Shown here piece by piece: positions 1,058 to 36,978 of a stretch of DNA of 37,004 nt. The notes under the pieces are model-generated. The model was not told where the DNA came from. It was given only the letters and a program-made list of their open reading frames with translations, and did no database searches. Within the stretch, counting starts at the first letter, position 1; each line of letters starts with the position of its first letter. Source of the stretch: a virus. The position numbers and the translations under genes were made by a program. Location of the stretch: the IMG/VR virus record IMGVR_UViG_3300049043_000012, positions 1 through 37,004 of that record; one strand, given 5' to 3'.

Positions 1058-1381
1058 ATGAATACGGTAAATAGTTTCACCTTCAACAACGCTTTGTTGA
1101 AGAAAGTTCAGGATTACGGCAACGTAGTCAAAGGCATCGTCCAATCCCGTCAAACGGAATACACTCCAAACGGAGAACTCCGTAGCAAGTTCATCGCTTC
1201 CCGTCAGGTAACCATTACTGACCAATCAATCATCGCAATCCTCCGTCCTCTAATTTCCGAGAACGCTGAATTCGTTGTCAATCTCTCAGGCTATCTCACA
1301 ACAACCGTTCGTGAAAATGCCGAAACAAAAAAGCCAGTGTGGTACGACAATCAAATCGTCACCTCACTTGAACTTCTCTAG
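1058..1381 (+). CDS. Putative divergent single-stranded DNA-binding (SSB-like) protein
   Basis: Intact 107-residue frame starting at ATG 1058 behind AAAGGAGAC. The strand pattern resembles an SSB OB fold: VVKGIVQSRQTEYTPNGELR near residues 23-42 echoes the family's R-x-YTPNG-x-x-x-F segment, and LSGYLTTT with a following Trp and IVTSLELL near residues 76-107 echoes the final strands of SSB. It lacks the long acidic C-terminal tail of bacterial SSB. Its codons favour C-ending forms (AAC, ATC, TTC, CTC, TCC) much more than neighbouring genes, and hairpins flank it on both sides, which suggests a highly expressed unit. The SSB assignment is inference; other OB-fold roles are possible. Confidence 0.45.
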   Translation: MNTVNSFTFNNALLKKVQDYGNVVKGIVQSRQTEYTPNGELRSKFIASRQVTITDQSIIAILRPLISENAEFVVNLSGYLTTTVRENAETKKPVWYDNQIVTSLELL

Positions 1382-10716: not shown

Positions 10717-10890
10717 ATGAAGAATAAACTATTTACTATAGGTAATAGAAACATAATCTTTATATTAGGTTATGGACGTAGACTTGCTTTAGGATTTTGT
10801 ATTAGTCCTTGGGCTATTGATTTAGAGTTTGGTCCGTGGTGGTTAACTATAGAATGGTGGCGCACTAATGATTTTGAAACTGAAGAATAG
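10717..10890 (+). CDS. Small Trp-rich protein, unknown
   Basis: Intact 57-residue frame starting immediately after the FmdB stop. MKNKLFTIGNRNIIFILGYG is followed by RRLALGFCISPWAIDLEFGP and WWLTIEWW, then an acidic end. The strand-like, Trp-rich make-up suggests a small beta protein. It overlaps whiB by 23 bases, so the two are probably translationally coupled. Family not recognised. Confidence 0.55.
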   Translation: MKNKLFTIGNRNIIFILGYGRRLALGFCISPWAIDLEFGPWWLTIEWWRTNDFETEE

Positions 10891-11146
10891 ACCAGCCTGC
10901 GAGGGAACAGACACAGAGATGTGGTTTCCTGGCAATGGCAAAGAATATACACATAAAGAATATCTAATTAGGATTTGTAAGAGTTGTCCAGCAAGGCAGG
11001 AATGTCTTGAGTATGCACTGGAATACAACGTAGATGGATTCTGGGCAGGCACAACAGACCACCAGCGTAAACAGATTCGCAGACAAAAAGGAATGATTCC
11101 TAAACCAGTCCTACCAGAATGGGAGATAAGTAGACGTGGCGCTTGA
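10868..11146 (+). CDS. whiB: WhiB-like Fe-S transcriptional regulator
   Basis: Intact 92-residue frame from ATG 10868. The four cluster-binding Cys are C11 (ACEGTD), C37 and C40 (CKSC) and C46, followed by the turn GFWAGT that corresponds to G-[VI]-W-G-G, and a basic DNA-contact segment (DHQRKQIRRQKG). WhiB proteins are restricted to Actinobacteria and their phages, where they act with the primary sigma factor; phage copies are known to interfere with host WhiB2. This is the best single marker for the host. The stop overlaps the next gene by 11 bases. Confidence 0.92.
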   Translation: MILKLKNRPACEGTDTEMWFPGNGKEYTHKEYLIRICKSCPARQECLEYALEYNVDGFWAGTTDHQRKQIRRQKGMIPKPVLPEWEISRRGA

Positions 11147-27967: not shown

Positions 27968-30900
27968 TTATAACCCTATACGTAATCGGCGGTAGTAATA
28001 ATCCAGAATGGTCTGGAAGATTGCTCGGTTGGCTTCTTTAACTTATTAAATCACCCTCAAGCATCTGTGCTATCAGGGCTTCAATATCTGCTCTACGCTG
28101 ACGTTTAATATCTGCAAAGTTTTTTGCTTCTTTTAATCTAGGGTCCTGAGATGTATGAATAAAATCTCTAATCTGTGTAGCAATAATTGCTATCTCCTTA
28201 GACCGTGTTGCTTCTGGTATTTTAAAAGCAGTATCCTGAACCATCTGCTCAAGATTTTCAAACATAATAGTTTCACTAGCAATTTCAAATCCACCACCAG
28301 TGATGATTGCATCTAAAGAAAGGATTAGATGCTTTCAATAGCCTGACGGTTCATCGTTGCTCTAGCAATAATAGCCCTTCTTGCAGTAGGACTGCCTGTA
28401 GTTTCAAGTTCTTCTTTTTCTTGACGGGCTATATCGTAGTAAGCGCGTTTATCCTGAGAAGTCATTACATCTATATAGTATTTATCAAGGTCTTTATTCT
28501 TTAGCAAAGTCGGCTGCTTCTAGCCACGCATAACTAGCAGCATCAAACTCTCCTACTTGTGGAGCAAAATAAATGCTGCTTCTCCATATTTATCGACTAA
28601 AGACTTATTGTCAATATACCAATTTTTCATTTGCTTTGTTTTGGCAATCAAAACATTTGTTTGTTTATCATCACGGGATACTGTATAAACTAATTTGCTT
28701 GGATTGTTACCAACAAAAGATGCAACAGCCATATCGTATGGATTCTGAATATCTCCGCCATACTTTTTCGTAATAGAGTTTACATAATCATAAAATTCAG
28801 CACGAACACTGGTAATTCCAACAGCCTTTAGATAGTCAAGGAACATCCTTACTTCTTGAACTGTTGGTGCAACTGGTGCTAGTAATCCAAGAATCTAACG
28901 CATAACCATAATGTTATGTGCTGATATACGAACATCTTGTAGATATTCAGACTTTTCTTCTGGGCTGAAGCATTAGCATTTGGGATATTACCACGTGCAG
29001 CATTAAAGGCAATAGCCTGCATAGCAGCAGTTGCTTCTTGTCTATCCTTTCTCAAGACTTAGGCAGTAAAGCGTAAATCCTTTCTGCAATGGTGCTGGTA
29101 TTGCGGCTCTAATAGCATTGATGTTATCGCCTATTCCACCCAATGCAAAGTTATCTAATTCTTCTGCTGTTTTTTTAAATCTGACTGTTCCTAAATATTC
29201 TTCATACCTATAATACTTAAGGCAGCAATAGGTCCAGAGAATGTAGGAACACCAGACTGGTCATCAAGTGATGGGTTAGCCAACTTTAACTTAAGAGTAA
29301 AATCATTAAATAATGGTTGTTTAAATCCAGTAGTTCCTAAAATACTCTAGTTACTATTCTTACTGTTTTAAAAATAGCGTCATCCATAGGCATCATTAAA
29401 TATGGGTCGCCATTGGCATCTTCGTATAGACCACCATAAGCATCTATACCAGTATGGGTAAGTCGCATACGAGACAAAGCACGTGGGGATACATCTCGCA
29501 TACGATATACACGACGCCAAAAATCTTCAGTTGCACGATAGAAACGACCAACATTGCGGGAAGAGATAGCAAAATTAGTACGAATGTTTGGATTATCTAC
29601 ATACTTTAAAATTGTATCTGCTGCTTGTTGCAGAGCAATTTCAGTGTATTTCTTTTGAACAATTTCTGTTACATCCTCGAGCGCGTCTTCGCGCCAAGTT
29701 ACTGGTATCTGATAAGCACCTGTACCTCTTGGAAAGACTTAACTGTTTCTTTTTATATATTGTCTGACTAGTTAACTTATCAAGTAATTCTTTTAACAGC
29801 AGCAGGATCTTAAAGTTGTTACATCAATACCTTTAGACTCTAATAAAGCGCTAACTCTAGCACTCATAAGAGCGCTCATTTCCTGCGTCTCTAGTTTTGC
29901 ATAGTTTTCTCTAGTACTACGAAAATAGGTTGTCCATAATGCTGGCTGACGCAAAATACCTGTGACTTGGCGGTCCATTATATCCATCATATTATTACCA
30001 AGTTTTGCCCAAGCAGATTCTTGGTCTACAACACCTTCTGACATCTTTCAAATCAAGGGTTGTATACATTCTTCCACTTGGCTGAAAGCCTTTAGTTAGA
30101 CCGAGCAAAGTCATCAAAACTCAATAGCCTGCGCTGCTAGATTCCATTTATCTTTAATTTTTCTACCAGTAGTTTTTTCATCAGCAACATATCTATCATA
30201 ACTTACTTTAATACGGTTAAATAAGTTATCGTTAAATTTACCTGCACGACCGTGAAGGAGCAGAGGCATCAAGTAAAGTTCTATCTACAATATCCTCTGC
30301 AATCTGCATATCACTAATACCACGTTGCTTGAAATCGTGGTACGACTAAGAGTTCCAATGCCATTAGTTAATGCTTTAGCATCATCAACTTTATGAGTTA
30401 CCGTAATACCTAAACCCTTAGATGCAGATACTTTTTCTGTTCTATAAATACCCAATGATTGTAATAAAGCATCTTTTGCTTTAATATAATCAGCCTCTGG
30501 TCTTTCAGAGCATTGTTAAGAGAAGAAAGCATCTACTGGTGTAAATCTTCTATAAACTTTAGTAGGAACTAAATTGCCTTGAGCATCTTTTACCTGTATC
30601 TCCCCAGGTACGACTTTTTCTATTTCCATAAAAATATCTAGTAAAATCTTCATAATGAACGCCAGCAATAGCCTTGCCATCAAATGCTTTAGAAACGTTC
30701 TGAGGTCTTTAGTGTTGACTAATCTACCTTTTGCTCCAGAAGATAGGTCTGACATCTTTTAGGGCCTTTTCCCAATTATTTGGAATTAAAAAATCTTCTG
30801 CAAGTTCTGCTCTATAGGTACCGCTAGCACTAGCCTTTGCTACAATAGAATTTGTCATACCAGTAACTACGCCAGAGCCGTGAACATTTGCTTGGATTAA

Positions 30901-33271
30901 ATAAGAAAGTTGTTCTGGTGAAATTTCATCAGGTAAAGTACGGGCTGCATATTGAGCAACATCGGCAACAACATCTGCCTTAGATACCATTTCTTCAGAA
31001 ATTACATTTTTATATGCAGTCTCTGTTCTAAACTGAACACGTTTAGAAAGAGGAACTGTTTCACTTGAGAGTAAGTGCACCAACTGCACGTTTAAATAGC
31101 GCAGTAAAACCTTCGGTTGAACGAGAACCACTAATAGCAGTAGCAATTTTTCCAGCAGCACGACCAGCAGCAACTGCTTTTGGCAATAAAACATTAAGAA
31201 TATCTCGTCCTGGTGCTGTTAAAAGATACATAGTTCCTTCATCTAAAAGCATCTTCGCATACCTAGACGTGGAAACAAAGTCATAATTGTCCAAGCATTT
31301 ACAAGATTGCTAGATAATTTTGACTGTCCAGCACCTTTTACTGCAGACTGAATAAGTATTTGTTTTAGTTCTAGCCTCATAACCAAGTTGGGCTAGCATC
31401 ATATAGTCAAGATTTGCTATAGCACCAGACTCTTGGGAAAGGGTGAATAACACCAGATGACTGATAAAATATACCTTCTGGCAATATCTCTAACACCAAT
31501 AGAACCAATTGGATTTTTTTAGATGGTCTGGCACTTGTATTTCCTCCGACAAGACCTGCACCTCTTGCTGAACCAAAATGAGACTGTAGTTCTTTTTCAA
31601 TAATATCACGCCCACGAGCGTGACCATCTACGCCATATTTCTGCATAATTGCATAATAAAGACTACGTAGTACTGCTACTTGGTCATTAGCATCAGCATT
31701 AACAAATTTAACTGTAAGAAAATCTGCTAAATCACGAGGTAAAACCTGACGCGCTGTATCTCTAAAGTTATCAGCAGTATCGATTGCATCTTCAACCCAA
31801 TTTTAATTGAACGGCCCATTGGTGATTTAGCAAAAGCCCTGCCAACTCTTTCTTTAATGGTAAGACCTTCAGTAAATTTTTGTATTTCTGGCAATTTGAG
31901 GACTTACAAAGTTATCTGCTTCTTCTCCAAGTTTTTTATAAGAATATCCCAGGCTGACTCACCTTTTTTCTTAACTTCTGGAGTTGCAATAGAAGGATTT
32001 AGTTGTTTTATCAGTATAAACGCCCAAATCCAAAATCTAAACGGCGTTGATTTCTGAGCAGTAACAACTCCAGTTCTAAAATACCGGATGCCTTCTACTC
32101 TGCCAGAAATAAGATTTAGTGTGGCATCAACATCTTTTTCAAAAATATTTTACAGCAGAAACAGAATCAAATATCTCATTATCTTTTAATAGTTTAATCC
32201 AGCGCATATTTGCGTGACCTGCGTCATCTACTATAAATATCACGAATGATTTTAGATTCTTCTTCTTTACCCTTTGCCGCGGATAGGGTCTTAATCATAG
32301 GACCAATTTCATTATCCCAATGGTCTTTAAGCAAGGGAGATGAATCAAAAGTATTTTTTACACCAAGTGTTCCGCCTAATTTAATATTAGCGACCATTCG
32401 GTCGCCAAGATTCAACATCTGGCCATCCTTTACGTGCTAGGAATGGCGCTACCTTTGAGGCTCCAAAAGTTAAATAAGTAAGTGGGTCAATTAAAATTTG
32501 ATAGATTTGGTCAACAAAACCAGAAACATTTTTTGTTTGACTACTAATATAATCTGGAGTGTTTTTTGTTGGCTTATTAAGAATACGTGCTATGTCACGA
32601 TCTCAGGCGTAAACCTGAGCATACTTAACAGCATCCATAACTTGTTTAAAGTTTGAATCATTATTAAATGCTTTTGAGAAAGCATCCAAAAATCCTTGAG
32701 TAAGTTGTCCTTGACCTTCAATAATTTCTCCAGGTTTTTTGCCCATAAGCAGACCCTTGGGCAACTTCTACACTATCCTTGCCAAAATCTTGTTCAGCCT
32801 GAGCAAGAGCACCTTCATCAATATACTCTACGTCCATCCCAAGCATCACTAAGAACATTAGTGCTAAAATAAATTTTCACCCTGTGCTACTTGTCTTGCT
32901 GCAAGATATGGAACATTTATAGCCTTACCATAAGCACCAGCAACTTTAAATAAACCCTACATAGGACTGGCTGCTAACTTAGCAGCACCTTTTACTAATC
33001 CTACAACTCTATCTCCAGCAGTTGCATCTGGTTTTGTATAGTCAGCATTAGGATAAAGAAAACTTAACATCTCTTGAACTTTAACATCAAGATTGTTGTA
33101 TTCTTCTCTAGCACGGTCCAATGGCATAGCCAAAAGACTTTTATTCTTTTTTACGGTACGACTAAATTGTTCAATCTGTGTTATTTGAGTTTTATCAAGA
33201 TTAGCCGCTTGAGCAGCAGCATAAATATTAGGGCTAACTTCGGCTACAGCAAAGTCTACTTTATATGCCAT
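27968..33271 (-). CDS. Giant virion protein of about 1770 residues, heavily frameshifted
   Basis: Start 33271: MAYKVDFAVAEVSPNIYAAA, then AANLDKTQITQIEQFSRTVK. Coherent blocks follow in rotating frames without an intervening start: LGDRMVANIKLGGTLGVKNT (32418), MQKYGVDGHARGRDIIEKEL (31646), DEGTMYLLTAPGRDILNVLL (31294), VVADVAQYAARTLPDEISPE (30900s), VVPGEIQVKDAQGNLVPTKV (30600s), MMDIMDRQVTGILRQPALWT (30000), YDYVNSITKKYGGDIQNPYD (28800) and RQRRADIEALIAQMLEGDLI (28060), with the tail ANRAIFQTILDYYYRRLRIG at 27968. I see at least 20 indels. Mostly helical with few Cys. No polymerase, protease or transglycosylase motif is evident. Likely an internal virion/ejection protein or a tape-measure substitute (inference). 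Confidence 0.6.
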
Positions 33272-33663
33272 TAGTATCCTTCATCAACAAGCCGTCTATA
33301 AACTAATTCTGAATCTCCGCTAGGGTCAAAATCTGAAAGTAATCTAAAAGTTTCTGCTAAAGATACTGTTGGTTTAACTGGCATAGGAGCCAATGCTTCA
33401 GAACCTGCACCTGCACCCATATCAATACCAGTAGTTATAGGCTCACTTTTACGTTCAGTAACTGCAGTAATAGGTGTTACATTAGATTGAACTTCAGCCA
33501 ATGGATTGACAGCCATAGGTGCTGCAGCCTGTTGATTGTAAGTAGCCTGACCTTCTCCATACGGCATACCAGAGATATAGCGAATAGGCTGCTGAGAAAC
33601 ATTTAAGTCTGTTCTCTTAGCGTCTTTACCGATTCCAGAAACTTGTTCTCTAATGTCTGCCAT
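33271..33663 (-). CDS. Small virion protein between portal and giant protein
   Basis: Intact 130-residue frame from 33663, overlapping both neighbours by one base (TAATG/ATG style). The first two thirds are Gln/Pro/Ala-rich and probably disordered (GEGQATYNQQAAAPMAVNPL); the end is a helical LAETFRLLSDFDPSGDSELV. No family recognised. Confidence 0.6.
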   Translation of the reverse strand: MADIREQVSGIGKDAKRTDLNVSQQPIRYISGMPYGEGQATYNQQAAAPMAVNPLAEVQSNVTPITAVTERKSEPITTGIDMGAGAGSEALAPMPVKPTVSLAETFRLLSDFDPSGDSELVYRRLVDEGY

Positions 33664-33922: not shown

Positions 33923-35666
33923 CTACCTCCGTATTGCAGTTCGGGCGCTAGCGCTTGCTGTTCCTCCAGCCGAAAGGCTGGATAGTAAAGTTTGTAGTGA
34001 AGGTGGTTGAGAAGCGCCTCCTGCTAACGCACGCGGGAGCAGGGGACGGTTGCTCAACCATAGGGCAGCGCCAGCAGGAGGTAATTCTGGAGCGAAGACT
34101 TCTTCAACAGCGTCTTCAATAGGTACACCCTTTTGGCGTGCTTTAATAACATCAGCAACTTTCTTAATGACCATTGAAGGGTCTCCACCTTGAACTGCCA
34201 TTTGTGGAATTGCTTGTGTATATGCCTGCAGGGATTGGACTAGCGACTTACGCATATTTTCAATCTCAATCTTTTCTTGCTCCTGTGTTACGTTAATACC
34301 AAATGGTAACTCACGCATAGCAAGGTCTGTTGAAATTAGTCCGCCCCCTAGTGCCTGCAACATAAATATCAAACCTTGTGCAGGATTAAGCCCAGCCAAC
34401 ATTCCATAACGAACATCGGCTGAATAGTCTTTCTTAATATCTTTGCTTGGTAAGTATGTAATCTGATACGGACTACCAGCATCTACACCACGAATAGTCT
34501 TTTCATAATTAAAGAATTTCTCATCTACCTCAAAGCAAACAGAAATTACATCACGTAATGCGCTAGCAAAAATAGCCTGTGCAGATTTAACTTGAGTATC
34601 AAATCCACCCATAAGTGCTTGCACACCTTGTCCCGTGATGATGCTGGCATCAATATTGCCAGTACGTCCCTCTGGGTAACGTGTACCTGTTCTAAGTTCT
34701 TGTTGCAGCAACTGCTTGTTCAGTAAATGCTCCAGGTGGAATGTTAAGGTCTACACGGCGAACACCTGCTGGGTTAGCGGTGCGGATAACAGCATCGCCA
34801 CCCATTTCAAGTTCATTAACATCCATAGGCAAAACAATTGGTGACTGAACAGATTTTTCCGCTGCTTCCATCGCAAGTAATGCGAACCTGTTGCGAAGCA
34901 ACTGAATACCTAATACGTCATCAAACTGTCCACGCATCTCATTATCAATGCTTGGACGACGTGCTACTACTACCATCATCTTACCAATTGGGTTCTTGGC
35001 TTGTGATAGTACTAGGTTGTTACGCTCTGGCACATACAAGATAGATTGCTGGTCATCGTAATAACGAACAACTTCTAGTTGTGAGTTCATATCTGACTTG
35101 TACATTTCTCTACCAAGTAAGATATTGGCATATTCAGGGAACTGTGATGCTAGTTCTCCTACTGCCATATAGTAACGTTTTGCAAAAGCAATGCAGCGTC
35201 CATAGCGGTCAAACTCTGGGTAAGCGCCCACTGGGTTTTCTATACGGATACGCGGCAGCCCTGCTTCTTCGTCCAACTCTATGATGAATGGGACGAAACC
35301 AAATGTGATGTATAGGTCTGCGCCTGTATACATCTGGACCTGTAAGTCCGAGTTAGCAAAATAATTAGTAGCAATACGGGTACGTGTATCAGCAAACTTA
35401 CGAGCACGGTCATTAGCCTGATTCGCCGCGGAACAGTTGACCGACGGCAAAGGCGCCATAACTTCCGATAGGTCTCTTGCAACAATATCAATAAAATTTG
35501 CAACGACATTTGCATCTACACCTTCAGGAAAAAAATCAGGATAGACAGTTGCAATTTGTCCCTTACGGACAGCAAGAACGTCTTGTTGGCGTGAGTCACG
35601 CTCTGCAGCACGTTCACGTAAATTTTCTACGCGTGCTGAAATTTGTTCTATTGATAACATTGCCAT
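33923..35666 (-). CDS. Portal protein, one frameshift
   Basis: Start 35666 behind AAGGATGG. MAMLSIEQISARVENLRERA, then NVVANFIDIVARDLSEVMAP, GADLYITFGFVPFIIELDEE and RIENPVGAYPEFDRYGRCIA are features of portal proteins of related actinophages. An indel near 34700 joins the second half: GNIDASIITGQGVQALMGGF, QVKSAQAIFASALRDVISVC, and the long C-terminal helix NMRKSLVQSLQAYTQAIPQM. About 580 residues. It forms the dodecameric vertex ring for DNA entry. The last 40 residues are Ala/Ser/Leu-rich and coincide with several inverted repeats (33945-34081), so the exact C-terminus may be altered by an indel. Confidence 0.8.
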
Positions 35667-35700
35667 CCTTCATTTCATCAAGTTAGATTGTATTTGTTGT

Positions 35701-36978
35701 TTATTTGCTTCTGCTTCTTGTCAGTAATTGTCTCCAAAGTAATACAGCATCTACTCCTAAACCTACTAGACCAAATGCTGCACCGCCCCTACCACCAACA
35801 ATTGGAACCTGTTTAGAAATATTCATTTGTATTCTTAGAGAATTGCCTGTGTGATAAACTTTATAGGAGGCATTTAATTTATCCAACAATTTAATAAATT
35901 CAGAGTCAACACCTGGCATATCACCAACTACAAACTTAGCACCTGCTTGTGCTGCTGCAGTAATTTGATTTATTGTTTCTGGTCTTAATGGTTTATTTGC
36001 TAACTTGCCATTTTCTAGCAAGCATAATTGTTTTGCCAGATAAATTTCCGCTAGCAGGACCTAACTGTAATAAACTTGTTTCACTAGAAGTTTTACCAAT
36101 TTTTCCTGGTTCAGCAGTTGTAATCTGTGATTGTCTCAGTTGTATCTTGTAATTCTACTATCGCAGCATTGGCTACTTTTCTCATAGCAACATCTTTGGC
36201 ATCTCCCATAGGAGTTCCTTTGCCTGCATTGCCACCAGAAATTTTAACAGTATTTTGTTTACTTAATCTTTCAAAACTTTTCATACCTTCAAGTGCGCGA
36301 CGGTCTGCTTCAGATTGCACAGTACGCTCTGCAAGCGGATTTACTTCGCCAGTATCTATATCTCTCAACATAGCGGCTTCTTTAATAGCAGCATCTCTAT
36401 CAAGTAAAGCATCTTGCTGCTTGAGCAGCGCGGTCAATTAATTTCTGTTCTTCTCTACTGATAACACTACCCATAGATATACGAAATGAATCTTGAATAG
36501 CATCTAACTCAGCACGTCTACGTGCACGTTCTTGTGCAATTTCAATAGCCATAGGTAAAGACTTGGCTAATGATGGTTTAGAACCAGGTGCTCTAGTCAT
36601 ACCACCAATAGTTCCGCCACGAATACCTTTTGCAACATCTTGGCGCTCTTTAGTTCCTTTAAATCCTTTTTTGCCTGGGGCTTTTATTTTAGTAACTTCT
36701 ACTTTTTTAGTATCAGGTGCTGGTGTAGGTATATTACTTGGTTTTATTTCACCAGTTTTAAAAGCACGAAAACCTTCACGAGCAATATCTCGTTTAACAA
36801 TTGGACCTTCTGGTTCTTGCTGTATTCCACCAAGAACAGGTGAAGGTACAGTAGGTGGTCCACCTTGAACACCGCCAGGTGTTACTGGTCTAGGCATAGG
36901 AACATTACCACCAGGAGCCTTTGATATCTCCTTAATAACTTCTTTTAAATCTTTCTTTAGTGGTTTCTTTTCAGCCAT
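35701..36978 (-). CDS. Two-part protein with disordered N-terminus and SLOG-like C-terminal domain, frameshifted
   Basis: Start 36978 in a TAATG context. Residues 1-100 are Lys/Pro/Gly-rich and probably disordered (APGGNVPMPRPVTPGGVQGG). RARRRAELDAIQDSFRISMG and SREEQKLIDRAA form a helix; an indel near 36420 leads to DAAIKEAAMLRDIDTGEVNP and MKSFERLSKQNTVKISGG. After two more indels the C-terminal domain reads GKTIMLARNGKLANKPLRPE, INQITAAAQAGAKFVVGDMP, GVDSEFIKLLDKLNASYKVY and HTGNSLRI. The strand, G-D-x-P-G-x-D loop and second strand match the nucleotide-binding SLOG/YspA (DUF2493-like) pattern. The last stretch is Gly-rich and hydrophobic (VPIVGGRGGAAFGLVGLGVD). About 425 residues; could be two genes split at an indel. 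Position next to the portal suggests packaging or virion link. Confidence 0.5.

Follow-up and report, generated by a model that had tools for sequence, protein, structure and literature searches.

Phages oppose host defences that signal through nucleotides with decoy proteins such as Tad1, Tad2 and Acb2, which, to our knowledge, have to be expressed after infection before they can act. SLOG domains encoded by viruses have likewise been proposed to counter ADPr signals (PMC9503650). A further class of described phage factors, the polyvalent proteins, consists of giant modular proteins with exchangeable domains that are thought to be injected into the host (PMC5512222). The three decoys are named in PMC12043709.

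The window analyzed here is the whole of an IMG/VR virus record, 37,004 bases in length, in which many genes are broken by frame changes; the split genes, together with a gene order as in the related record G001, make it resemble uncorrected long-read sequence. At one end of the window, the first-pass annotation had read a SLOG-like domain in a protein located among head genes, beside the portal. The block is real: it belongs to a single minus-strand gene, and among 23 stretches of viral contigs selected by pattern, 9 code for a relative (78–90% identity), which is far above chance. These nine relatives are single open frames (one is cut by a contig end and some are mutually identical), and the complete intact relatives of the carrier protein are 437–481 aa long. 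The location was likewise correctly read, since the carrier lies between the terminase and portal genes (Table 1), an arrangement also found in locus L004 of the 39.5 kb record G001, where the order is terminase, a 460-aa protein, portal. The portal, whose open frame begins at 35666, matches phrog_104 with E-values of 1.2e-13 and 8.2e-13 and is 82 and 93% identical to the L004 portal in its two frames. Compared with intact relatives by tblastn, the carrier gene is readable in five pieces (36978-36412, 36416-36144, 36136-35999, 36033-35713 and 35720-35676) and, therefore, contains at least four frame changes, one of which falls inside the originally quoted block, where KTIMLAR and NGKLANKPLRPE...YKVYHTG are read in different frames. 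Outside the domain, the carrier has a basic, low-complexity appearance.

Table 1. Features of the window, domains of two related giant proteins, and predicted structural elements (E, strand; H, helix) of the two domain families
Feature	Position	Strand	Basis
Terminase large subunit, last codons	36984..37004	-	frame 0 WQQTYG then stop; L004 terminase ends QWQETYG (by eye)
Terminase-portal accessory gene with SLOG domain	35673..36978	-	tblastn of intact L012 and L002; start codon 36978
Basic low-complexity N-terminal part of carrier	36260..36978	-	domain-less versions in L093, L094, L106
Predicted circularly permuted SLOG domain (b4, b1, b2, b3)	35827..36248 (about)	-	profile A3, three pieces
b4 block KGTPMGDAKD..MRK..NAAIVEL	36126..36248	-	E 8.5e-17; weak match to C-terminal block of unpermuted family
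Portal protein, two frames	~33926..35660	-	phrog_104; identity to L004 portal
Giant late protein, frameshifted, without SLOG domain	27989..33280	-	matches G015 and G001 giants
Empty counterpart of giant insertion site A	30114..30272	-	ORF reads HGRAGKFNDNLFNRI...; by-eye comparison with filled and empty giants
WhiB-family gene, host indicator	10886..11074	+	PF02467, E 6.9e-15, above its cut-off
L213, cpYpsA and sub-threshold NADAR	aa 911-1053 and 1091-1181		Pfam
L215, 2OG-Fe(II) oxygenase	aa 1048-1165		E 5.7e-8
Unpermuted family (A6), elements in rotated order	E78-83, H86-96, E99-102, H112-122, E2-6, H13-29, E33-37, H42-54, E61-66
Permuted family (A3), matching elements	E2-4, H19-27, E30-34, H56-64, E75-80, H91-102, E106-110, H117-126, E130-134

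The interval initially assigned to the domain, 35701-36100, covers part of it and misses its full extent. A profile of the family (A3) matches the window at 35827-36036 (E 3.2e-31), 35978-36136 (E 1.4e-9) and across the b4 block, which falls outside that interval, so that the domain runs approximately 150 bases beyond the end originally given. The core comprises about 140 aa, starts upstream of the quoted block, and contains, in this order, the motifs GKGTPxGDxKDxxMR...IVEL...SSETS, KTIMLARNGKL, FVVGDMPGVDS and Y.IYHTG..PR. Among the 25 aligned domains, 12 were compared in codons, and in the resulting 66 pairs the median dN/dS is 0.23 and the highest value 0.49, which indicates that the domain is under purifying selection.

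Scans of the domain against Pfam, PHROG, NCBIfam and PADLOC yielded nothing convincing. In particular, PF12694 (cpYpsA) gave no match with an E-value of 10 or less to any of six queries (relatives or domain pieces), and PF10686 (YAcAr/DUF2493) matched neither the window nor, at E-values up to 10, the intact relatives. An hmmsearch of PDB sequences with the domain produced one chance-level match and none to DprA, YpsA, LOG, the molybdenum-cofactor carrier or ThsA; a tblastn search of PLSDB plasmids detected no copy of the permuted domain, and matches to a Rhizobium phage and plasmid proved unrelated. The AlphaFold2 model built on 25 relatives (A3) is one compact unit (pLDDT 93.3, pTM 0.89). When compared with the PDB by Foldseek and VIA, aligners that follow chain order, it retrieved generic alpha/beta folds only, with no SLOG protein among the matches listed and a best Z of 6.0; its best match in BFVD is a giant protein of 'uncultured phage cr10_1' (E 9.9e-3, probability 0.96).

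The connection to SLOG emerged when a weak hit in Lak megaphages (E 0.8) pointed to L063, a short protein in which the same motifs are ordered differently. Relatives of L063, collected from phages, plasmids of cyanobacteria and 18 viral loci, were assembled into alignments A5 (16 sequences) and A6 (13 sequences), and the leading VIA matches of the A6 model (pLDDT 95.2) are chains that we take to be SLOG proteins, the ThsA SLOG entry being so named: the molybdenum-cofactor carrier (Z 12.9), ShosA (12.2), DprA (11.6), YpsA (11.5), TM1055 (11.1), LOG with AMP (10.2) and ThsA (9.4), with an rmsd of 2.1–3.7 over 107–120 residues. Foldseek by itself placed DprA first, at E 5.6e-3, with no match below 0.001. 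The b1 loop followed by the b2 motif G..(G).D is present in the cassette, where IMLARN and VGDMP[GN]VD align with ISGHR and GD..G.D. On the strength of the comparison of the unpermuted relatives' model with the PDB and of profile homology between the families, the domain of the window is assigned to the SLOG superfamily. The superfamily thus stands as the first-pass annotation had it, and the narrower placement in the YspA/DUF2493 group is not supported; the structural resemblance to SLOG comes from the model of the unpermuted relatives. The unpermuted short SLOG family (L063, L065, L067-L085) is found in huge phages and cyanobacterial plasmids, and its members matched no Pfam family (one scanned) and no NCBIfam family (three scanned).

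A feature overlooked in the first reading, along with the N-terminal third of the domain, is its element order. Over b1, b2 and b3, the cassette's C-terminal half aligns with the N-terminal half of A5 (E 1.7e-13, probability 98), and its N-terminal half gives a weak, though specific, match to the A5 C-terminal half (score 19.3, E 0.0012, probability 20); same-side comparisons of the halves, included as controls, scored 9.3 and 7.4. With 25 domains, none of 300 column shuffles reached the observed score for either half, and with 61 distinct domains instead, the probability for the b4 half is 14 and two of 300 shuffles reach its score. The modest b4 figures would be compatible with a reading in which the protein is not permuted at all, only b1–b3 being SLOG-like and the N-terminal third being an unrelated segment with a chance likeness to the b4 block. 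We regard this as improbable, given that the motif [RK]D.AM[RT]...[SA][DN]..I ... S.T is common to both families in swapped place; that the predicted elements of A6 and A3 pair one to one after rotation (Table 1), A3 having only a short extra helix at 38-43; and that the model folds as a single compact unit. A candidate b4 block with an (S)GT loop is seen at the swapped position, with the weak scores given above. The order of the two motifs is opposite in the two families, in all 25 permuted compared with all 16 unpermuted sequences. The break falls where the unpermuted family has a loop joining PR to GGF, a loop of 8 and 10 residues in the two proteins counted (L067 and L076). Taken together, sequence and model comparisons identify the order b4-b1-b2-b3 as a circular permutation of SLOG, cut between b3 and b4. 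No description of a permuted SLOG of this form was found in the open-access literature searched.

The position of the domain varies among related phages. It occurs once per record in each of 35 records searched, all of which were picked for having it (the three matches in the window are pieces of one copy), and the domain profile has no match inside the giant late protein of the window. Within this phage group, the places of the cassette are the terminase-portal proteins, at two sites, or a giant of about 1,900 aa, also at two sites, approximately 70–80 residues apart as counted on the alignment; in other members it is absent. In G001, the domain resides in the terminase-portal protein and the 1,808-aa giant lacks it; in G015, the portal starts 8 nt after the terminase and the domain is within the giant. 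Cassette-bearing giants are located between the portal and capsid genes, and L008 has the domain close to the N-terminus of a terminase-portal protein of a different kind.

Fourteen filled proteins were compared with domain-less versions. The two flanks of L172 are 97 and 98% identical to the empty L094, those of L178 and L174 are 98 and 92–95% identical to the empty L142 (98 and 95% for L178), and those of L002 are 87 and 90–95% identical to the empty L106 and L093. Lower values were obtained for L175 and L163 (77 and 65%), L167 and L094 (69 and 64%), and L008 and the empty L126 (56 and 66%); the best empty partners of L017, L177, L179, L025, L029 and L173 are at 28–53%, and no empty partner was found for L168. 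At the DNA level, 12 nt in L142 take the place of 468 nt in L178, between flanks that are 93 and 96% identical, and no target-site duplications or end repeats were evident in the two stretches scanned or the junctions inspected. The domain thus behaves like a cassette that moves between late head-region proteins.

Within this phage group, it is a rare one. Of the at least 559 portal loci, 80 were kept and three of these have the domain, a lower bound because many portal loci are fragments. Where terminase, portal and a complete giant are all present (30 loci), the domain is found in two and missing from 28. These numbers bear on the possibility that the domain is structural, its SLOG fold serving, without a ligand, to clip proteins together in the head or the giants. 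In the records examined in detail, it is indeed always in or close to other late proteins, and two records (L030, L031) have it free-standing, which is in keeping with such a role. Absence from 28 of 30 loci and the swapping of sites imply, on the other hand, that assembly does not need the domain, and the presumed ligand side carries G, D, H and R residues that do not vary among the 25 sequences and are largely kept in the unpermuted family. A structural clip is, accordingly, a rather unlikely explanation.

The terminase-portal junction was also inspected in its own right (L088-L166). Either there is almost no gap or the space is occupied by diverse basic proteins, ranging from an overlap or 4–11 nt up to 2,675 nt, and the junction is an accessory-gene hotspot.

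A WhiB-family gene is found in four of six records searched (the window, G001, G015 and OX376641), indicating an actinobacterial host; from this gene content, the phage of the window probably infects actinobacteria. The G001 portal is 76% identical to the portal of OX376641 (LanE43-AprF5), a record that we take to be phage F5 of Ca. Planktophila, which with phage E7 of the same host represents the cultured relatives (PMC10202952). A tblastn search of INPHARED records, F5 included, found no copy of the permuted domain. F5 has a giant of 1,711 aa (L087, OX376641, 2255-7390) that corresponds in place and size to the G001 giant; the two share no BLASTP similarity and are not alignable.

A further scan extended the family to 70 loci, 24 of them close (at least 62% identity) and 46 more distant. 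The close loci comprise ten proteins of 408–481 aa, twelve giants or cut giants and two free-standing domains (161–162 aa). The 46 distant viral loci, some of which are near-duplicates, are found in frames of 1,807–5,058 aa in 44 cases and in frames cut by a contig end in two. In GTDB genomes, two pattern scans, each of which sees only pattern-fitting places, yielded no relative in the first and one in the second: locus L044 (3225-10001), from a contig binned into a Neisseriaceae MAG, codes for a protein of 2,258 aa that has the permuted SLOG, an A1S_2505 phage domain (NCBIfam, E 3.3e-30) and a weak match to ThcA of Thoeris type III (E 0.11). The contig is probably a misbinned phage. Macro and DUF4326 domains read by eye beside the L044 domain were not confirmed by Pfam.

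Among seven giants scanned, one of the distant ones (L202) matches a PHROG virion structural protein (E 4.5e-37), L203 matches an exonuclease, L032 and L217 match families of unknown function, and L019, L034 and L200 have no PHROG match; a PDB search with a profile built from six actinophage giants gave no significant match. The 4,080-aa giant L213 (698-12937) has the cassette and cpYpsA (PF12694), detected in one of 14 records searched, within the same protein, and, below the Pfam cut-off, PD-(D/E)XK and NADAR. Its sister L215 has a 2OG-Fe(II) oxygenase in a similar stretch (Table 1), which shows that these giants do exchange parts. A NADAR domain read by eye in L041 has a Pfam E-value of 0.0062, below the cut-off.

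The motif DFDxDK, known from crAss-like virion polymerases, is present in the same frame as the domain at 29 of the 46 distant loci, a count made with no chance control; the literature search did not find the motif. Its presence is relevant to an alternative in which the domain would be a sensor that switches its carrier, such as an enzymatic portion of the giants, in response to a host nucleotide, leaving the signal in place. SLOG domains elsewhere act as sensors, that of ThsA among them, and ThsA is matched by the unpermuted model. Sensing by SLOG domains in fusions has also been proposed (PMC9503650). Such a role is less easily reconciled with the occurrence of the same cassette at varied places and in carriers that have no other recognizable domain, which would be unusual for an allosteric sensor, and a phmmer comparison of L034, L041 and L044 with the PDB gave no sequence support for a polymerase identity of the large giants. 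We consider the sensor alternative unlikely.

We favor a different interpretation, at a probability of roughly one half: the domain is a permuted SLOG cassette that is delivered with the head and binds an NAD- or nucleotide-derived host signal. According to this proposal, the b3–b4 loop of an ordinary SLOG became the two ends of the domain as the old ends were joined. The N- and C-termini would then be near each other in space, separated only by the former short loop, so that a loop of a different protein could accommodate the domain, and phages would shift it as a cassette from one late head-region protein to another. Permutation would thereby provide a physical reason for finding one domain at several places in unrelated late proteins. 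The carriers may belong to the particle and reach the cell together with the DNA, as suggested by the late gene region, the giant size and the one virion-protein match. The invariant polar residues on the presumed ligand side point to a nucleotide-type ligand, most likely an NAD- or nucleotide-derived host alarm signal, and the co-occurrence of the cassette with cpYpsA and a sub-threshold NADAR in one protein provides a signal-related context. The cassette would presumably sequester the signal before any phage gene is expressed. Cleavage is less likely: the catalytic Glu of LOG-type proteins is not seen in the domain, with an Asn near that place in A5, and binding is, for this reason, preferred.

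The analysis shows the relationship to SLOG, the permuted order, the insertion sites with their empty counterparts and the purifying selection. Packaging, delivery and a counter-signal role, which are putative, become more plausible in view of the recurrence of the domain in giants and its place in the head module. A broader version of the idea, which we put forward tentatively and consider possible rather than probable, is that permutation, by bringing the ends together, converted a stand-alone signal binder into a plug-in SLOG that suits almost any particle-borne protein and is passed from site to site, and that actinobacterial phages and crAss-like-looking giant-protein phages employ it against host nucleotide signals in advance of gene expression. 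The near-identical filled and empty sites make the effect of the cassette testable between sister phages. The anatomy of the domain is unusual and well supported; its function is putative.

Among known families, cpYpsA is also a circularly permuted SLOG and shares the giant L213 with the cassette. It differs in being cut between b1 and b2 (b2 ... b4 ... b1, from the L213 motifs read by eye), whereas the cassette is cut between b3 and b4 in 25 of 25 sequences; the name cpYpsA is absent from the open-access literature searched, although Pfam lists the family. The nearest relatives found are the unpermuted short SLOGs of cyanobacterial plasmids and of huge phages, Lak phages among them, which have the same motifs and predicted elements in the ordinary order and, in the 11 proteins inspected (130–325 aa), are not within a giant. 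DprA, YpsA, LOG, the molybdenum-cofactor carrier and the SLOG of ThsA have the fold of these unpermuted relatives (Z 9.4–12.9) and are set apart from the cassette by element order and by their lack of an hmmsearch match. Cassette giants resemble polyvalent proteins in being modular with exchangeable parts (PMC5512222); the term SLOG does not appear in the available portion of that text, and the actinophage giant L019 is devoid of any Pfam match. The viral SLOGs of PMC9503650 share with the cassette a phage origin, NAD-related neighbors and a head-gene context proposed for related domains; the viral exemplars are described there as typically standalone, and the accessible part of that paper contains no permuted or cassette-like form. 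The idea that viral SLOGs counter host signals is therefore already published (PMC9503650), and what is new here, relative to that accessible part, is the permuted form and the delivery context. Set beside the expressed decoys Tad1, Tad2 and Acb2, a SLOG carried in the particle would, if the proposal is correct, act at time zero.
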